Shown here: in pieces, positions 21,095 to 31,525 of the stretch
Numbering within the stretch: the stretch's first letter is position 1
How the letters are laid out: each line of letters opens with the position of its first letter
NCBI GenBank assembly: GCA_903970385.1
Contig: CAJCIN010000072.1
Span: forward strand, 1 to 40,712
Length of the DNA: 40,712 nucleotides
Source: Rhodospirillales bacterium
Lineage (GTDB): Bacteria; Vulcanimicrobiota; Vulcanimicrobiia; Vulcanimicrobiales; Vulcanimicrobiaceae
Reading direction: 5' to 3'
The notes under the pieces: generated by a model
What the model was told of the DNA's origin: nothing
The model's input: the letters and a program-made list of their open reading frames with translations, nothing else
Databases searched by the model: none
Program-made: the position numbers and the translations under genes

Positions 21095-22537
<1,443 letters not shown>

Positions 22538-22552
22538 GCTGGCTCGGACCGT

Positions 22553-23257
22553 ATGACCGCGCACGACCTGCGACCGAAGATCCTGATCGTCGAAGACGAC
22601 ACCGACATCGCGTCGTTCGAGCAGACGATGCTCGATCGCGCCGGCTATCAAACGCGCATCGCGGAAACGGGACAACGCGGGCTCGACCTCGTCAAGACGT
22701 TCGCTCCCGACGTCGTGTTGCTCGACATCGGCTTGCCCGACATGTCCGGACTCGACGTCCTGACGACGATCGCAGAAACGGCCGACGCGTACATTCTGAT
22801 GGTGAGCGGACACTCGAGCGAGGAGACGCGGTTGACGGGGCTCGGCCTCGGCGCCGACGACTTCATCACGAAACCGTTCTCCGGCAACGAGCTCGTGGCG
22901 CGCATCGCGTCGTTTCTGCGACGGCGGGAACGCGCGCGTCTACGCGATTCGGACGGCCGGCTGCAGGTCGGCGACGCCGCGCTCGTCCGCGATCTGCACA
23001 CGCTCGAAAAGGACGGCCGATCCGTCGCGCTCACGGCGCTCGAGTTCCGGCTATTGTGGTTTCTCACCGAAGCGGACGGACGGCTGCTCACGCGCGCGCA
23101 GATTCTCGAACGTGTGTGGAACGACGTCTCCGGCGTGCCCACGCGCGTCGTCGACGTGCACGTGGCCGCGCTCCGAAAGAAGCTGAGCGGCGTCGGCGCG
23201 TCCTATCAGATCTCATCCGTGCGCGGCATCGGGTATCGCCTCGACGCGTCCGCGTGA
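22553..23257 (+). CDS. OmpR/PhoB-family response regulator (orphan)
   Basis: The protein has 234 residues. The receiver domain has the acidic pair (LIVEDDTDIASFEQT), the phospho-acceptor in VVLLDIGLPDMSGLDVL (about residue 58) and the Lys in FITKPFSGNEL. The C-terminal winged helix carries LTALEFRLLWFL, LLTRAQILERVW and RVVDVHVAALRKKL, ending at SVRGIGYRLDAS, which is the family's usual end. No histidine kinase gene lies beside it. Instead its stop overlaps the start of an unknown protein as GTGA, so the two are translated together. It begins 15 bases after the malic enzyme gene. Target genes are unknown. Confidence 0.94.
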   Translation: MTAHDLRPKILIVEDDTDIASFEQTMLDRAGYQTRIAETGQRGLDLVKTFAPDVVLLDIGLPDMSGLDVLTTIAETADAYILMVSGHSSEETRLTGLGLGADDFITKPFSGNELVARIASFLRRRERARLRDSDGRLQVGDAALVRDLHTLEKDGRSVALTALEFRLLWFLTEADGRLLTRAQILERVWNDVSGVPTRVVDVHVAALRKKLSGVGASYQISSVRGIGYRLDASA

Positions 23258-24093
23258 CGACGGCACCGGCCGCTTCCCCGACGCCCGACGCTCGCGCCGA
23301 AGAGATCTTCGCGCGTGCGAGGCGCGCGCTCGTCGCGCGAACGTATCCCGCGGAGATCGCGTACGGCGTGCGCGTGAGCGGCTTGCGCGACGGCACGTGG
23401 ACGGCGCGCACGTACCGCACGTACGAACGTTGGCCGTCCGGGCGCATCAGCGCGCGTACGATCAGCGACGAGGAGACGGCGGATCCCACGCGACCCAAGG
23501 GTTCGAACATCAACTTTTTCGCGTTCAACATCGGCGGCGACGGGCAACCGCTCAAGGATCTGCTCGGAACGCCGCGGCTCGCGGTCACGTATGCGTTCGG
23601 CCTCGTGCCGCCGTCGCACGACGTACCGTTGCCGGGCGACGTGCCGACGCCCGTGCCGGGAGAGCCGCGCACCATCGGTTCCGTGTCGGCGCTCGCGCAC
23701 ACCTACGACGTGCGGCTCGCGGGCGAAGAAACGATCGGCGCCGCCACGTGTTGGCATCTCACGTTGAAGCCGCTCGGAAACCCCGGCGCCTATCGCCTTC
23801 GCGACCTCTACGTCGAGGAAGCGACCGATCAGATCGTCCGCCTCAAAACGGACGGAAACTTCACGACTAAAGCGACGGGCGCGGGCCTGTGGACGGTCGA
23901 CTACGCGGCGATCGACGGACGCTGGTACCTCGCGGACGAGATCTCCGACGGCAGCGTCGATTCCGATGCCGGCACGTTCGACAAAGTCGACGTGCGTTTC
24001 GTCGACGTACGTGCGGACCTGCGCGAGAATCTCGACTTCGGTCTCGCGGGAAGCGACGACGTTCCCGTGCTCGCGGAGCCGGGCCCGCCTTAG
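23254..24093 (+). CDS. Protein of unknown function coupled to the OmpR-type regulator
   Basis: The protein has 279 residues from a GTG that overlaps the regulator stop as GTGA. I do not recognise a family with certainty. The N-terminus is alanine-, threonine- and proline-rich (TTAPAASPTPDARAEE) and has no hydrophobic export segment at this start. The rest is a long series of beta-strand pairs with charged turns, for example VRVSGLRDGTWTARTYRTY, LHLTLKPL-type strands and YRLRDLYVEEATDQIVRLK, with two helices near the N-terminus. This resembles the unclosed barrel of LolA/LolB-like proteins, which carry lipids or lipoproteins, but a leader peptide is missing. It could be an effector or cofactor of the regulator. 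The fold is inferred from strand pattern only. Confidence 0.7.
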   Translation: MTTAPAASPTPDARAEEIFARARRALVARTYPAEIAYGVRVSGLRDGTWTARTYRTYERWPSGRISARTISDEETADPTRPKGSNINFFAFNIGGDGQPLKDLLGTPRLAVTYAFGLVPPSHDVPLPGDVPTPVPGEPRTIGSVSALAHTYDVRLAGEETIGAATCWHLTLKPLGNPGAYRLRDLYVEEATDQIVRLKTDGNFTTKATGAGLWTVDYAAIDGRWYLADEISDGSVDSDAGTFDKVDVRFVDVRADLRENLDFGLAGSDDVPVLAEPGPP

Positions 24094-24148: not shown

Positions 24149-26452
24149 ATGGGTCGCATTCCTCGAACGCTCGCGGTCGTCGCCGCACTCGTCCTCGTCA
24201 CTCCCAGAATCGGAATCGGCGCGTCGCACGCACGCGGAACGCAACCCGTCGTGTTCGCCGCCCCCGCGGGCGACCGTCCCGCCGGTCCGCCGGCGGTGTC
24301 GGATGCGGACGGCAGCGTGCTTCCGTCGGGCCGTCTGTTGCGGCCCGCGGGCACGAGCGTGGTGACCGGAAGCGACGCGCTCGGTTTCGCATTGACGCCG
24401 GACGGGCGGTACGCGATCGTCTCGAACGGCGACGATCGCGCGTCGACGCTCGCCGTCGTCGACACGGCCACGATGACCGTCGCGGCCCGGTACGCGAACG
24501 CGGCGGAGACGTTTTACGCGGGCGTCGTCGCACTGCCCGACCCGGTCGATGCCGCGCGCACGCTCGTGCTCGCGAGCGGCGGCGCGTCGAACGCGGTGTA
24601 CGTCTTCGATCTGAGCGAGAGCGGCGAGCTGTCGGCGGACGCGCATCACGTGATACCGATCGCGAACGGGTTTCCCGCGACCATCGTCTCGTCCGGCGAC
24701 GGGCGTCGCGCGTTCGTCATCGATACCGTCGGCAACGACGTCGCGCAGATCGACCTCGCAACCCGTAAGCTCGCGGGCATTCCGGCCGCCGTCGGATTTT
24801 TTCCGTACGGCGCGGCGCTGACGCCGCTCGGCCTCTTGGTCGCAAACGAAGGTCTGACCGCATACGGAACGCTCGCGACGCCGGCCGCCGCGCCGCCGTT
24901 CGAAGCGGTCGCGCCGGATCTCGCGCGCGCGTCGTCGCTCTCGCTGTTGCCGCTCGAGGGCGATGCGACGATCGGCGAGCGTGCCGTCGCGACGCCGATC
25001 GCGCTCGATCGGACCCCCGACGGCGTCCGCGCGATCGGCGGCGCGCATCCGGCGGCGATCGTCTCGCTCAAGACGCGGCCGTACGCATTCGTCGCGCTCG
25101 CGAACGTCGATCGCGTCGCGACGATCGCGCTCGCGCCCGGGCCGCTCGACGGACCGTCGTGGGTTCCGCGCGCCGTCGGCGGCACCGAATTACGTTTGTA
25201 CGATCGCGGACCGTACGGCACCCAGCCGACCGCGCTCGCCCTGTCCGCCGACGAAAAACGTCTCTACGTCGCGCTCTCGGGCATCGATGCCGTCGCGGTG
25301 CTCGATACGACGGATCCGCTGCATCCGCATCGCGTCGGCCTGATATCGACGGGATGGTATCCGACGGCGCTCGCCGTGTCGGCCGACGAGCGCTATCTCT
25401 TCGTGACGAACGCGCGCGGCGACGCGCAGGCGGGCGCGACGCTCGAACGCATCGACTTGCGCTCGACCGATCTCCGCAAGACGACGCCCGCCGCGCTCGC
25501 GGCGCTTCGAACGATCCGGCAACCGAACGTGCCGAACCCGATCGTGCCGCAACGATTCTCGAGCCGCGGGAGCACGGTCGTCAAACACGTCGTCTTGATC
25601 GTCGCGGACGGGGACACGCCGGACGAGCCGAATCTGCACGCGCTCGCCCTGCGCTACGGACTCGCGACGAACGTCTATGCGGACGCGACGGCGCCCGACG
25701 TCGGTCATCAGTATCTCGCGGCCGGCATCGCGAGCGATTACACCGAAAAAACCGCCCTCGTGCGTCGCGGACGGCGCGCGTTGCCCGGCGCCAATCAGGA
25801 TCCCGAAGACTATCCGCGCGCGGGCTACATTTGGAACTCGCTCGCGGTTCGCGGCCGGACGTATCGCGACTACGGCGATCTCGTCCATCTCTCCGGGTAC
25901 GACGCCGGTCTCACGCCCGATGCCGGTCTCGGCGGGACGTATTCGCTGGACGTGCCGGCCCTCGCGGCGCTGCTCGGTCACGTCGACCTTGCCTATCCGG
26001 GTTGGAATCCGCACGTTACCGATAGTACGCGCGCGGACGAGTTCGTGCGGGATTTCGATGCGCTCGTGAAGCTCGATAACGTTCCGGCATTCACGGAGAT
26101 CTGGCTGCCCTCGGGTACGCCCGCGGACGGCGATCGCGCGCTCGGCACGATCGTCGCGTATCTCACGCACGTGCCGCAATGGAAGAAGATGGCGATCGTG
26201 ATCGTGCCGGCCGACGCGCAGCCCGGCGAGGGCAGCGATGCGGCGCGCACGTACGCGCTCGTCGTCTCGCCGTACGCCAAGCGCCGGTTCGTCGGCACGC
26301 ATCATCTCTCGACCGTCAGCGTGTTGAAAACGGAGGAAGAGTTGCTCGGTCTTCCGGCGCTCTCGCTCGGCGACGAGCTCGCCACGGACATGAGCGATTT
26401 CTTCACGCCCGTGGCGGATCGCACGCCGTTCGATCGCGTCGACGCGCCGTAG
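24149..26452 (+). CDS. Exported YncE-like beta-propeller fused to a degenerate phosphoesterase-like domain
   Basis: The protein has 767 residues with a signal peptide (TLAVVAALVLVTPRIGIGA). Residues about 60-450 form a YncE/YVTN-type seven-bladed propeller, with repeats such as ALTPDGRYAIVSN and ALSADEKRLYVALSG and ALAVSADERYLFVTNA. Residues about 478-745 match the C-terminal part of bifunctional YncE/alkaline-phosphatase-superfamily proteins: KHVVLIV, DVGHQYLAAGIASDYTEK, GHVDLAYPGWN, VSPYAKRRFVG and LKTEEELLGLP. The motifs that hold metal and nucleophile in relatives (ENRTYD near the start, EDDAQNGPDHVDAHR near the end) are here ADGDTPDEP and PADAQPGEGSDAA, so the acidic and histidine ligands are gone. 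The domain is therefore probably inactive and structural. Location should be periplasmic. Confidence 0.87.
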   Translation: MGRIPRTLAVVAALVLVTPRIGIGASHARGTQPVVFAAPAGDRPAGPPAVSDADGSVLPSGRLLRPAGTSVVTGSDALGFALTPDGRYAIVSNGDDRASTLAVVDTATMTVAARYANAAETFYAGVVALPDPVDAARTLVLASGGASNAVYVFDLSESGELSADAHHVIPIANGFPATIVSSGDGRRAFVIDTVGNDVAQIDLATRKLAGIPAAVGFFPYGAALTPLGLLVANEGLTAYGTLATPAAAPPFEAVAPDLARASSLSLLPLEGDATIGERAVATPIALDRTPDGVRAIGGAHPAAIVSLKTRPYAFVALANVDRVATIALAPGPLDGPSWVPRAVGGTELRLYDRGPYGTQPTALALSADEKRLYVALSGIDAVAVLDTTDPLHPHRVGLISTGWYPTALAVSADERYLFVTNARGDAQAGATLERIDLRSTDLRKTTPAALAALRTIRQPNVPNPIVPQRFSSRGSTVVKHVVLIVADGDTPDEPNLHALALRYGLATNVYADATAPDVGHQYLAAGIASDYTEKTALVRRGRRALPGANQDPEDYPRAGYIWNSLAVRGRTYRDYGDLVHLSGYDAGLTPDAGLGGTYSLDVPALAALLGHVDLAYPGWNPHVTDSTRADEFVRDFDALVKLDNVPAFTEIWLPSGTPADGDRALGTIVAYLTHVPQWKKMAIVIVPADAQPGEGSDAARTYALVVSPYAKRRFVGTHHLSTVSVLKTEEELLGLPALSLGDELATDMSDFFTPVADRTPFDRVDAP

Positions 26453-26485: not shown

Positions 26486-27373
26486 GTGCCGAACACGCCG
26501 TTCGTGACCAGCGCGAGCCCATCGTATAAAGCACCGTTCGTTCGCACCGACGGCGGCGCGCTCCGCGCCGTCGTCGTCGTGCGTCCCGCGGCGAGCATCG
26601 CGGCGATCGCGCCCGTCCACGGCGAGTCTCATCCGATCGCCGATCGTGCGGCCGAGCAGCACCGCATCTTCACGGGCCGCCTCGCGTCGTTCGGCATCGC
26701 GACGATCGAAGCCGAGCCCGATGCGGCGGCGCCGTTCGGGCCGCTCTGCGCCGACGGAGCCGTGATCTTTTCCGACGGCGCGTTCCTGATGCGCCCGAGC
26801 GATCTACGACGTCGCGGCGAGGTCGCCGCGCTCGAGGCCGCCCTCGGCCGCGCCGGCATTCCGATCGTCGGGCGTATCGAAGCGCCGGGGCTGCTCGACG
26901 GCGGCGACGTCATCGTCGCCGGCGATACGGTGTATCTCGGCGTGTCGACGAAACGGCAAGCCGAAGTCGGCATCGCGGCCGCGGTGCACGGCAACGTGTT
27001 CGGCCGCGAACAGCTCGCCGCGTACGCGCGCTCGAAGGGATGCACGGTCGTCGCAGTTCCGATGGCGGCGGAGGTCCGGCGGCTCAAGTCGGTCGCATCG
27101 CTCATCGCCCCGGAAACCATTCTCTACGCGCCGGGACTGCTCGACGGCGATGCATTCGGAACGCTCGAGAAGATCGCGGCGCCGCGCGGCGAGGATTACG
27201 CTGCCGGCGTGCTCGCGCTCGGTAATCGGCGCGTGCTCGCGAACCTGCGGTTTCGCGAGACGACGCCGCTCCTGCGCAAGGCGAAGTTCACCGTCGACTC
27301 GATCGATCTGTGGGAGTTCGGAAAGATCGGCGCGACGCCGTCCGTGATGGCGCTCGCGCTCAAGCGGGACTGA
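26486..27373 (+). CDS. DDAH/amidinotransferase-fold protein lacking the catalytic triad
   Basis: The 295-residue protein is collinear with dimethylarginine dimethylaminohydrolase (DDAH), which hydrolyses methylated arginines using Cys, His and Glu. Matching segments are VGRIEAPGLLDGGDVIVAGD, VRRLKS, YAAGVLALGN and DSIDLWEFGKIGATPSVMAL. Compared with the Pseudomonas enzyme recalled from memory (VEAGD, VLHLKT, GGVSCMSL), Glu is Asp138, His is Arg199 and the nucleophile Cys is Val287 (27344-27346). All three catalytic positions therefore differ, so arginine hydrolysis by the usual mechanism is unlikely. The frame is intact to the C-terminus, so this is not simple decay. It could be a binding or regulatory protein. 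It begins an operon-like run with the metallophosphoesterase and ABC exporter, 4 bases downstream. Confidence 0.85.
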   Translation: MPNTPFVTSASPSYKAPFVRTDGGALRAVVVVRPAASIAAIAPVHGESHPIADRAAEQHRIFTGRLASFGIATIEAEPDAAAPFGPLCADGAVIFSDGAFLMRPSDLRRRGEVAALEAALGRAGIPIVGRIEAPGLLDGGDVIVAGDTVYLGVSTKRQAEVGIAAAVHGNVFGREQLAAYARSKGCTVVAVPMAAEVRRLKSVASLIAPETILYAPGLLDGDAFGTLEKIAAPRGEDYAAGVLALGNRRVLANLRFRETTPLLRKAKFTVDSIDLWEFGKIGATPSVMALALKRD

Positions 27374-27377
27374 CCGC

Positions 27378-28103
27378 ATGCGCGTGGCCGCGTTCTCCGA
27401 CATCCACGGAAACATCCGCGCGTTCGACGCGTGTCTCGCCGATCTGCGCGAACAGGGCGGCGCCGATACGATCGTCGGCGCGGGCGACTACTGCATGGAC
27501 GGCCCCGCACCCGCGGCCGTCCTCGAACGCCTCGCCGACGTCGGTGCGCTCTGCGTGCGCGGCAACACGGACCGGTACATCTCGGACGTCGCGGCGCTCA
27601 CCGACGACGAAGAAGACGGGCATCTCGCGTGGCAACGGCGCGCGCTCGGCGAGACGTGGGTCGCGTGGTTACGCGAGCTTCCGGCCAGCTTGACGTTCGG
27701 CAGCGGCCACGACGCGTTGCTCGTGGTGCACGCGAACCCGAAGACCGACGACGAACACATCTGGCCGGATGCGGACGACGCGTTTCTCGAGCGCGTGACG
27801 GCCGGAGTGCAAGAGCGCACGATCGCGTTCGGTCACCTGCATCTCCCGTACGTGCGCGCGTGGCGCGACCGCTTGTTCGTCAACGTCGCGTCGGCCGGTC
27901 TGCCGAAGGACGGCGACGCGCGCGCCGGCTATGCGATCCTCACGCAGCGTTCGGGCGGATGGCAAGTGAAGCATCGTCGCGTGGCGTTCGACGTCGACCG
28001 CGTGATCGACGACATCGAGAAGAGCGGCATGCCCGACCGCGAGAAGCGCGTGCGCGTCTTGCGACGCCATCGCTACAAGAGCATCGATGAACGGATCCCA
28101 TAA
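27378..28103 (+). CDS. Metallophosphoesterase, YfcE/calcineurin-like
   Basis: This 241-residue cytoplasmic phosphoesterase of the calcineurin fold uses two metal ions. The motifs are in order: FSDIHGNIRAF (DxH), VGAGDYCMDGP (GD), CVRGNTDRYI (GN), LVVHANPKTD (His) and FGHLHLPY (GHxH). The small size and N-terminal arrangement match the YfcE/MJ0936 group. The C-terminal tail (DREKRVRVLRRHRYK) is basic. It lies 4 bases after the DDAH-like gene and overlaps the ABC ATPase gene by 17 bases, so it is co-expressed with both. The substrate, probably a phosphodiester or nucleotide, cannot be deduced. Confidence 0.93.
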   Translation: MRVAAFSDIHGNIRAFDACLADLREQGGADTIVGAGDYCMDGPAPAAVLERLADVGALCVRGNTDRYISDVAALTDDEEDGHLAWQRRALGETWVAWLRELPASLTFGSGHDALLVVHANPKTDDEHIWPDADDAFLERVTAGVQERTIAFGHLHLPYVRAWRDRLFVNVASAGLPKDGDARAGYAILTQRSGGWQVKHRRVAFDVDRVIDDIEKSGMPDREKRVRVLRRHRYKSIDERIP

Positions 28104-29019
28104 TCCGCAGAGCGCGCTGCGCGTAACGGATCTCGTCAAACGCTACGGAGACTTCGCCGCCGTCGACGGCGTGTCGCTCGACGTCGCGAGCGGCGACTTC
28201 TTCGGGTTTCTCGGGCCGAACGGTGCGGGGAAGACGACGACGATCAACGCGATCGTCGGGCTCGCGACGCTGACCTCCGGCACGATCGAGATCTTCGGTC
28301 ACGACATCGTGCGTGATTGGCGGGCGGCGCGACGGCTCGTCGGGCTCGCGCCGCAGGAATACAACTTCGATCGCTATCTCTCGATTCGCGACGTCCTGAT
28401 CTATCAGGCCGGCTACTACGGGTTGCGCGGCGCCGCGGTGCGCAGACGCGCCGACGATCTCCTCGCGCGCTTCGAGCTCGACTCGAAAGCGGGCGACACG
28501 TTCGTGAAACTCTCGGGCGGTATGAAGCGGCGGCTCTCCCTCGCGCGCGCGCTGATCCACGAACCGCAGTTGCTGATTCTCGACGAGCCGACGGCCGGCG
28601 TCGACGTCGAGCTGCGTATCGAACTGTGGGCGCTCTTGCGCGAACTCAACGCGCGCGGCACGACGATCATCCTGACGACGCACTATCTCGAAGAGGCCGA
28701 GTCGCTCTGCCGGAACATCGCGATCGTCGAGGGCGGAAAGATCGTCGCGATGGAGCCGACGGCCAAGCTGCTCGGGCGCCGCGGGTCGACGCTGCACGTC
28801 ACGCTCGAAGCGCCGATCGCCGCGCTCGTGCCGGCGTCGCTCGCCGCGCGCGGCGCGATCTACGACGCATCGACGCGGACGCTCGCGTTCCCGAACATCG
28901 CGCCGCAAGCGATCGCGGCCACGCTCGCAGACATTCAAGCGGAGGGTCTCGCGGTCGCGGACGTCGATTTCGCGCGGTCGAACCTGCAAGACGTCTTTCT
29001 CGATCTGGTCGGACACTGA
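28087..29019 (+). CDS. ABC-2-type exporter ATP-binding subunit
   Basis: This is a 310-residue ATPase. Walker A is GPNGAGKTTTINAIVG, the Q-loop lies near APQEYNFDRYL, the signature is LSGGMKRRLSLARAL, Walker B is LLILDEPTAGVDVELR and the H-loop is TTHYLEEAE. The C-terminal extension of about 80 residues after the H-loop is usual for ATPases paired with ABC-2 permeases of the YadG/NodI type. The start overlaps the phosphoesterase gene, and the permease begins within the stop codon. Together they form a two-gene exporter; the cargo (for example polysaccharide, lipid or drug) is unknown. Confidence 0.95.
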   Translation: MNGSHNPQSALRVTDLVKRYGDFAAVDGVSLDVASGDFFGFLGPNGAGKTTTINAIVGLATLTSGTIEIFGHDIVRDWRAARRLVGLAPQEYNFDRYLSIRDVLIYQAGYYGLRGAAVRRRADDLLARFELDSKAGDTFVKLSGGMKRRLSLARALIHEPQLLILDEPTAGVDVELRIELWALLRELNARGTTIILTTHYLEEAESLCRNIAIVEGGKIVAMEPTAKLLGRRGSTLHVTLEAPIAALVPASLAARGAIYDASTRTLAFPNIAPQAIAATLADIQAEGLAVADVDFARSNLQDVFLDLVGH

Positions 29020-29810
29020 TGGCGAATTCGATGGACGTCTGGGGCTTTCGCAATCCCGTCGGGCTCGCGACGCTCGTCAAACGCGAACTCGTGCGCACGA
29101 TCAAGGTCATCAATCAGGTGATCTGGCCGCCGATCATCACGACGATCCTCTACGTCCTCGTGTTCGGTCTCGGGCTCGGTAGCCAAGTGCGGGCGATTCA
29201 AGGCGTGCCGTACGCGGCGTTCCTCATCCCGGGCCTGATCATGCTGCAAGTGATCGATCAGACCTACGGCGAGTCGTCGAGCTCGCTGTTTCAGGGACGC
29301 TTCATGTACTCGATCCAGGAGCTGCTCGTCGCGCCGCTCTCGGCCGCCGAGATCGTCACCGGCTTCATCGTCGCGTCGATCGTGCGCGCGCTCGCCATCG
29401 CGATGCTGATCCTCGGCGTCGGTTTCGTCATGGTGCGCACGGTTCCCGAGAATTGGACGCTGTATTTCGGCATGACCGTTCTCGTCGCGACGCTCTTCGC
29501 AGCGATCGGGATGATCTTCGGTCTGCTCGCCGAGAAGTTCGATCACATCGCCGTGTTCACGACCTTCGTCATCACGCCGCTCGTGTTCGTCGGAGGCGTC
29601 TTCACCTCGGCGAAATTCCTACCGCCGCTCGTCCGCCAAGTCTCGCTCTTCAATCCCATGTTCTACATGATCGACGCGTTCCGGTATTCGTTCACGGGTC
29701 ACAGCGACGTGCCGCTCGCGCTCTCGCTTTCGATCGTGTGCGTGCTGACGGCCGTCTCGCTCGTCGTCGTGCTACGGATGATCGGCGCCGGCTACAAACT
29801 CCGCGTCTGA
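29019..29810 (+). CDS. ABC-2-type exporter permease subunit
   Basis: The protein has 263 residues and about six membrane segments, with the usual cytoplasmic N-terminus (VKRELVRTIKVINQVIWPP). The ABC-2 signature region can be seen as FTTFVITPLVFVGGVFTS followed by LPPLVRQVSLFNPMFY and IDAFRYSF. The ATG shares one base with the ATPase stop, the standard coupled arrangement (YadG/YadH-like). With the ATPase it forms a homodimeric-type exporter. After it there is a 50-base gap with a hairpin at 29819-29838 (GCCCGC with GCGGGC), then the thioredoxin-TPR gene, which may or may not be in the same transcript. Confidence 0.94.
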   Translation: MANSMDVWGFRNPVGLATLVKRELVRTIKVINQVIWPPIITTILYVLVFGLGLGSQVRAIQGVPYAAFLIPGLIMLQVIDQTYGESSSSLFQGRFMYSIQELLVAPLSAAEIVTGFIVASIVRALAIAMLILGVGFVMVRTVPENWTLYFGMTVLVATLFAAIGMIFGLLAEKFDHIAVFTTFVITPLVFVGGVFTSAKFLPPLVRQVSLFNPMFYMIDAFRYSFTGHSDVPLALSLSIVCVLTAVSLVVVLRMIGAGYKLRV

Positions 29811-29860: not shown

Positions 29861-31525
29861 ATGCCGTACCGTCGCCTGATTCCCGCGCTGCTGGCCGCCG
29901 CGCTTCCGCTCGGAGTCTCCGCGGATCCGTCCGCCGCGCCCTCTGCCGTCGCACCGCCCACGACGGCGCCCGCCGCCGGCCTGACCGTCGGCATGCCCGC
30001 GCCCGCCTTCAGCGTCAAAACGCTCGACGGTAAGACGGTCGGGCTCGAAAATTACCGCGGTAAGACGCTCGTCATCAACGTCTGGGCCACGTGGTGCCCT
30101 CCGTGCCGCGAAGAGATGCCCGAGCTGATGACCTCGGCCCCGAAGTATGCGAAGGACGGGACCGTCGCGTTCCTCGGCGTGGATACGACGGAGCAGGCGC
30201 CGATCGTACGCGCGTACGCCGCCGCGAAGAACGTGCCGTACCCGCTCGCGCTCGGCACCGACGCCTCGTTCGGGCGCGCGTACGACATCCAGGCATTCCC
30301 GACGACGTTCGTCATCGACGCGAACGGCATCTTACGCGCTCGCTACGTCGATACGCTCGCGCCGCGCCAGCTCGCCGAACTGGTCGCCGCGGGCAAAGCG
30401 GGCCGCAACGCCGCGATCGTCTCGCCGCTGCAGTCGAAGATCGACGCGTCGCTCGCGGATCCCGCGATCGCGTTCACGTCGAGCGATCCGGCGGCGATCG
30501 AGGCCAATGCCAAGGCGGCGGATGCGGCGATCGATCGTGCGGAGAAAATGCTCGACGATAGCGATGCCGCCGCGGGCAACTCGACCGATTTCTTCCGCAC
30601 GCGCGCCGAAGAAGCGGCGCTTCGCGATCGCGCGGTCGCCGCACTCGTCAACGTCGGGACGTCCGTGACGGACAAGTCGCTCTTGCCGCGCATGAGCGGC
30701 GATGCGGCGCTCGAGGGCGAGCGCTGGAGCGACGCGCTCGACGCGTACCGTTCGGTGCTCGCCGTCGATCCGAAGAACGAGGACGCACTCGGGGGCATCG
30801 CGCAAGCGTCTTCGCGGCTCAAGAACTACGACGCGGCGGTCGCGGCCGACCAGCAACTGACCGCGCTCGCTCCCGACGACGCGACGGCGCTCGTGAGTCT
30901 CGGATTGACGCAGCAAGAGGCGGGGCATGCGGCCGATGCGTACGCGACGTTCGACCGTGCGATCGCGCTCGCGAAGAAGCACGTCGATGCGAGCCACGGC
31001 AAAGCGGGCGACGTGCGCATGCTCGCGTACGTCCACATGTACGCGGGCCGGACGTACGCGAAGAACGGCGATACCGCGCACGCACGGGCGCAATTCGAAG
31101 AGATGCTCGCGTGGACGCAAAAGTTACCGGCGAACAATCCTCGTCACGACATGTACCTCGAGGAAGGTCAGGAAGCGATCGCGGCGCTCGGGCTCGTGTC
31201 TCCGGCCGGCATCTCCGTCTCGCTCGCACCGTGGATCGGTGCCGACCTGCCGGGCAGCGTGCCGAGCACCATCAAGTATCGTTTGGTGCTCGCGGGAACG
31301 GCCGGGAAGAACGTGACGCTCGAGGCGTCGGGTCTCCCGAAAGCGTGGGTCGCGTCGTTCTGCAGCGACAAGGTCTGCGCGCCGATGCGCGATGCGGTCG
31401 TCATTCCGCAGTCCGGTGTCAAGATCGTCGAGTTCCAACTGATTCCGCCGAGCGGTAAGCCGCCGGCGCCGAAGGTCCGCGTCACGGGCCACGACGGTTC
31501 GTCGGAAGCCTCGGCGACGACGTAA
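29861..31525 (+). CDS. Exported TlpA-like thioredoxin fused to TPR repeats and a C-terminal beta domain
   Basis: The protein has 554 residues with a signal peptide (LIPALLAAALPLGVSA). Residues about 42-185 form a TlpA/ResA-type thioredoxin domain with the redox site VWATWCPPCREEMPEL and the cis-Pro region AFPTTFVIDANG. From about residue 280 to 420 there are helical tetratricopeptide-like repeats (for example WSDALDAYRSVLAVDPKNEDALG, then YDAAVAADQQLTALAPDDATALVSLG), and the last 110 residues form a beta-rich domain with a CSDKVC pair that might be a disulphide. The starting ATG is at 29861; GTG codons just upstream are alternatives. It is presumably a periplasmic thiol oxidoreductase that docks onto partners through its repeats. 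Confidence 0.88.
   Translation: MPYRRLIPALLAAALPLGVSADPSAAPSAVAPPTTAPAAGLTVGMPAPAFSVKTLDGKTVGLENYRGKTLVINVWATWCPPCREEMPELMTSAPKYAKDGTVAFLGVDTTEQAPIVRAYAAAKNVPYPLALGTDASFGRAYDIQAFPTTFVIDANGILRARYVDTLAPRQLAELVAAGKAGRNAAIVSPLQSKIDASLADPAIAFTSSDPAAIEANAKAADAAIDRAEKMLDDSDAAAGNSTDFFRTRAEEAALRDRAVAALVNVGTSVTDKSLLPRMSGDAALEGERWSDALDAYRSVLAVDPKNEDALGGIAQASSRLKNYDAAVAADQQLTALAPDDATALVSLGLTQQEAGHAADAYATFDRAIALAKKHVDASHGKAGDVRMLAYVHMYAGRTYAKNGDTAHARAQFEEMLAWTQKLPANNPRHDMYLEEGQEAIAALGLVSPAGISVSLAPWIGADLPGSVPSTIKYRLVLAGTAGKNVTLEASGLPKAWVASFCSDKVCAPMRDAVVIPQSGVKIVEFQLIPPSGKPPAPKVRVTGHDGSSEASATT

Follow-up and report, generated by a model that had tools for sequence, protein, structure and literature searches.

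The window, as the whole stretch of DNA analysed is called here, is 40,712 nucleotides long (contig CAJCIN010000072.1) and carries the gene of interest, hereafter pseudo-DDAH, within a series of genes on the forward strand (Table 1). Its frame is unbroken across 295 codons and a GGAGG sequence sits about 11 bases upstream of the GTG start, which bears out the intact frame reported in a preliminary description of this DNA. From pseudo-DDAH through the permease the genes overlap or lie 4 bases apart. A scan for promoters and terminators gave the same counts as in shuffles. The gene at 23254–24093, which follows that of the response regulator and precedes the YncE gene, encodes a 279 amino acid protein for which Pfam gave no match.

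Table 1. Features of the pseudo-DDAH locus, in coordinates of the window.
Feature	Coordinates	Strand	Remarks
Malic enzyme	21095..22537	+	upstream edge of conserved block
OmpR-type response regulator	22553..23257	+	upstream in conserved block
YncE-like beta-propeller with phosphoesterase domain	24149..26452	+	secreted-type
DDAH-fold pseudoenzyme (predicted), pseudo-DDAH	26486..27373	+	295 aa, GTG start
Codon of Asp138	26897..26899	+	place of Pseudomonas Glu114; normal in intact DDAHs, no loss
Codon of Arg199	27080..27082	+	place of catalytic His (Pseudomonas H162)
Codon of Val287	27344..27346	+	place of nucleophilic Cys (Pseudomonas C249)
Calcineurin-like metallophosphoesterase (MPE)	27378..28103	+	YfcE-like, motifs present
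ABC transporter ATPase	28087..29019	+	DrrA/NodI-like
ABC-2 type permease	29019..29810	+	YadH/PRK15066-like
TlpA-type thioredoxin with TPR repeats	29861..31525	+	usually next in cluster

By sequence and predicted fold the window protein is a relative of the DDAHs. Its well-scoring phmmer matches were DDAHs only, among them Pseudomonas DDAH (3rhy, E-value=1.7e-14; 1h70, E-value=2.1e-14) and human DDAH1 (E-value about 4e-11), and a profile of 48 orthologues lowered the E-value for DDAH homology to 2.9e-39. The window protein itself had no Pfam match, and 15 of the 48 orthologues matched the Pfam family ADI weakly. An NCBIfam dimethylargininase model matched with an E-value of 2.6e-29, the scores lying far under the equivalog cut-offs (NF045660, 102.7 vs 340 bits; NF045658, 63.9 vs 450). 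An AlphaFold model built from the 48 orthologues had a mean pLDDT of 93.9, and its top Foldseek matches were all DDAHs, led by the Pseudomonas enzyme (E-value=1.8e-21, TM 0.93 on target) and with mammalian DDAH1 also among the best; a DDAH-type pentein fold is thus predicted. An anti-phage role was dropped since PADLOC gave no match for the window protein.

Aligned to Pseudomonas DDAH, the residues at the places of E114, H162 and C249 are D138, R199 and V287, a mapping which the preliminary description had given and which was reproduced here by phmmer and by the alignments. That description took all three catalytic residues to be replaced. This holds for the Cys and the His, but Asp138 is a normal triad acid: as Asp also occupies this place in human DDAH1, with its triad Cys273-His172-Asp126 (PMC10256801), and in the intact DDAHs of related genomes (L091–L094 and L132; DGGD with HLKS and SCLSL, i.e. 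Asp together with His and Cys), two triad residues have been lost and not three. DGGD is likewise found in 20/20 Chloroflexota relatives.

At the substrate site the window protein keeps D90, R109, D138 and N170 (Pseudomonas D66, R85, E114 and N134), whose equivalents are retained in 56, 58, 56 and 59, respectively, of 59 sequences from the window's family, and has F84, L87 and A89 in place of D60, F63 and E65. Pseudomonas R132 corresponds to H168, where 48 of the 59 sequences have Arg, and the D66 equivalent is lost in the sister family. Throughout the pseudo-DDAH clade E47, R255 and R294 are invariant. A Cys and His pair elsewhere in the pocket was looked for in the alignments and none was found; there is no family-wide replacement Cys, the commonest Cys column being filled in 19/59 sequences, and H59, in helix 52–68, is the only His that is common, and intact DDAHs retain it equally alongside the triad His. 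A misplaced active site was rejected on the Cys columns.

Pseudo-DDAH thus has in common with DDAH (Pseudomonas aeruginosa 1h70/3rhy, human DDAH1) the full-length predicted fold, the triad acid (Asp or Glu) and several residues that bind the substrate, but the window protein and all orthologues of its family are without the nucleophilic Cys and the catalytic His. Because these two defining residues fail and the equivalog scores are low, it should not be classed as a DDAH.

Orthologues (E-value<1e-78 with the 48-row profile) were found in 97 of the 99 genomes of the window's family, its own included, and in 4/4 of the sister family. The two absences are explained by an assembly that is 68% complete (G074) and by contigs broken exactly at the site (G013, where the YncE gene ends one contig, C171, and the ABC gene starts another, C142). 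Named records with pseudo-DDAH are nearly all MAGs of Candidatus Eremiobacterota or WPS-2. Judged from PMC9758169, the order is probably Baltobacterales, and the cultivated Vulcanimicrobium alpinum WC8-2 would belong to the window's family. One contig titled ‘Rhodospirillales bacterium’ (L034, JANYGA010000206.1) has a pseudo-DDAH sequence identical to that of a genome of the window's family (G007), so that this MAG title looks wrong. In two genomes, G009 and G112, an intact full-triad DDAH is encoded at another locus besides pseudo-DDAH, and the idea that the pseudo form stands in for an absent DDAH was rejected since both are present.

Among 63 distinct orthologues (59 from the window's family and four from the sister family) the Cys place is never occupied by Cys. 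In the window's family the residues found there include S, M, L, Q, N, R, V and A; the sister family has Ala. At the His place the 59 sequences have Arg (26), Ser (23), Ala (9) or Cys (1), and all four of the sister family have His. Val287 is unique to the window among the 59, so that the exact Val and Arg, by which the preliminary description proposed to find homologues, are not common to the family; the absence of Cys is. A tree made by a quick method, without bootstrap, united the 63 sequences in one clade separate from all intact DDAHs (SH-aLRT 99), its halves being the sister family (99) and the window's family (93). As the sister family has the His and not the Cys, the Cys would have gone first, and the simplest history suggested by the sequences is that the common ancestor lost the Cys once and that the His then disappeared in the window's family.

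Relatives from outside the order with readable motif regions have both Cys and His. The intact-triad relatives scoring best against the pseudo-DDAH clade are those of L050, a Chloroflexota contig, and L127, from a phylum-mate (G068); their C-terminal CLIMP(V/L)ER resembles the LALALKR end of the clade, and their neighbourhoods have no gene in common with the pseudo-DDAH operon.

Within-genus pairs (Nei-Gojobori) gave dN/dS values of 0.05–0.33 for pseudo-DDAH, 0.03–0.20 for the ABC ATPase and 0.05–0.34 for the metallophosphoesterase, all imprecise where dS exceeds about 1. The values for pseudo-DDAH are comparable to or somewhat above those of the MPE and ABC genes, and in some genera, such as g18, they exceed those of the neighbours. 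No internal stop codon was found in any listed orthologue of the two families. Judged by these substitution patterns the gene is maintained by selection; together with retention across the order, the single origin on the tree and the lack of a family-wide replacement Cys, this gives good support to the earlier proposal of a maintained pseudoenzyme. Recent decay in a single genome was rejected on the order-wide presence and the purifying selection.

The same-strand series of malic enzyme, response regulator, YncE-phosphoesterase, pseudo-DDAH, usually MPE, ABC ATPase, ABC-2 permease and TlpA-TPR protein recurs across the order. At 37 of 39 inspected loci an ABC ATPase gene lies downstream of pseudo-DDAH on the same strand, either next to it or with the MPE in between; the other two are L066, which is a short contig, and G040, a sister-family genome (L090, assembly 82% complete) which has the YncE gene and pseudo-DDAH and in which no permease orthologue was found. 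The MPE is absent from 8/39 loci, including all four of the sister family and some of the window's family. In G033 (L083) pseudo-DDAH stands directly between the malic enzyme and the ABC ATPase, and the response regulator, the YncE gene and the metallophosphoesterase are missing from the site. The phosphoesterase and exporter partners named in the preliminary description are therefore mostly constant but not obligatory, as MPE, exporter and YncE-phosphoesterase are each missing somewhere. An intact-triad homologue in the same neighbourhood was looked for and none was found.

Exporter orthologues at about 50% identity occur in the sister order without these neighbours. Because these exporters stand alone, and because pseudo-DDAH occurs in G040 without a detectable exporter, an obligatory or core exporter subunit was rejected; pseudo-DDAH was added to, or arose beside, an exporter able to exist without it.

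The phosphoesterase domain of the YncE-like protein keeps 3 of 10 scored catalytic and metal positions, chosen by motif conservation and general family knowledge, without a solved structure of this protein, whereas its nearest relative (L058) keeps 10/10. Among its operon orthologues 18 retain 9–10 positions and 29 have lost at least two, and paralogues elsewhere in the phylum retain 9–10 of the ten. Mapped onto the pseudo-DDAH tree, this active site requires nine or more changes of state. Judged by these residues, the active site of the domain appears to be gone in the window as well as in more than half of the operons. More broadly, a bacterial order might have made of a DDAH a non-catalytic protein that serves an export operon specifically as its sensor or adaptor, with the secreted phosphoesterase encoded beside it turning into a pseudoenzyme in one lineage after another; the two would then form a module of pseudoenzymes observed at different steps on the way to the loss of catalysis. 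This broader picture is doubtful.

Pseudoenzymes with the DDAH fold have been documented in eukaryotes. In RESC5 of the trypanosome RNA editing complex the Cys is replaced by Ala and the His by Pro, the binding Asp and Arg residues are retained, and thermal-shift tests showed no binding of the substrate dimethylarginine or the product citrulline (PMC9980740); it has been named a pseudoenzyme (PMC12936278). It resembles pseudo-DDAH in its fold, in the loss of Cys and His, in the retained binding residues and in conservation within its own clade, a likeness drawn from residues kept and lost, and differs in being eukaryotic and a member of an RNA editing complex, with no operon. Human DDAH2, which is paralogous to DDAH1, lacks the catalytic Cys at the corresponding position and has no DDAH activity, and is nevertheless maintained (PMC10256801); it is an animal protein of a lineage other than the bacterial clade. 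A binding use of a related fold is seen in the ribosome anti-association factor IF6, a non-catalytic pentein-type propeller whose weak fold similarity was reported for RESC5 (PMC9980740). The remark in the preliminary description that maintained pseudoenzymes of this family are unusual is fair, with the qualification that RESC5 and DDAH2 were already known in eukaryotes. As far as sequence can tell, pseudo-DDAH works like these DDAH-fold pseudoenzymes: the predicted fold and the alignment place it in a DDAH fold without the Cys nucleophile, and selection has acted on it over deep time, in two families.

That pseudo-DDAH is a maintained protein without DDAH chemistry is highly probable, the missing residues pointing to an absence of activity. 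For its function we propose that an ancestral DDAH-like enzyme of one Eremiobacterota order would have lost its nucleophilic Cys and stayed in one operon, that the Cys-less protein would have become fixed as a non-catalytic protein, and that the larger family would then have lost the His. With the fold, D90, D138, R109, N170 and usually an Arg at 168 retained, it would probably bind a guanidino or amino-acid ligand, or a protein surface, without turnover and, as a cytosolic sensor or adaptor, would tune the co-encoded ABC-2 exporter and the operon partners. The retained acids and arginine argue that a pocket, as judged from the alignments, may remain, and the replaced pocket residues that any ligand would differ from dimethylarginine; with Pseudomonas D60, F63 and E65 replaced and D66 lost in the sister family, the ligand may also be gone. 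Taken as a whole, the proposal has a little under an even chance of being correct. Both the ligand and the link to the exporter are conjectural, and the sensor or adaptor step in particular is put forward tentatively.

The main rival, which we consider unlikely though serious, is a pure scaffold that, in the manner of RESC5 or IF6, would use the pentein fold for protein-protein or nucleic-acid contacts. It would have neither a small ligand nor a particular connection with the exporter, and its place in the operon would reflect inherited co-expression. RESC5, after all, keeps similar pocket residues and binds neither ligand assayed (PMC9980740), and every neighbour of pseudo-DDAH can be absent at some loci. 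Such a scaffold is harder to square with the near-invariance of D90, R109, D138 and N170 in the window's family, which points to a retained pocket although part of it is perhaps structural, and with the order-wide synteny, which suggests a common task.

Catalysis in the DDAH superfamily proceeds by covalent Cys chemistry, and this established knowledge makes it improbable that pseudo-DDAH is an enzyme of different chemistry which uses the retained acids and arginines (E47, D90, D138, R255 and R294) in place of Cys and His. The invariance of E47, R255 and R294 and the strong selection would suit such an enzyme, but unlike residues replace one another at the place of the Cys (S, M, L, Q and V) and at that of the His (R, S and A), and no Cys takes over as nucleophile across the family. 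There is very little likelihood that the gene is decaying and retained merely through its operon context: the repeated loss of the active site in the upstream phosphoesterase and the elevated dN/dS in genera such as g18 fit decay, but the absence of internal stops, the dN/dS range as a whole and the presence of the gene in practically every genome of the two families do not. Nothing was found in favour of a misalignment that would hide an active enzyme with Cys and His elsewhere in its pocket, a reading we regard as extremely improbable given that phmmer, MAFFT and profile alignments agree across both motifs and that the Cys columns and H59 offer no substitute.

Returning to the proposed non-catalytic protein of the export operon, automatic annotation may wrongly label genes of this kind as dimethylargininase. 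A literature search of limited scope found no report of a bacterial DDAH-fold or pentein pseudoenzyme; pseudo-DDAH is an order-wide bacterial instance of a class that has been documented from eukaryotes. As the sister family still represents the intermediate stage, with the His present and the Cys lost, and as some of these genomes also encode intact DDAHs, one can test directly the order in which the residues were lost and the acquisition of a non-catalytic role.
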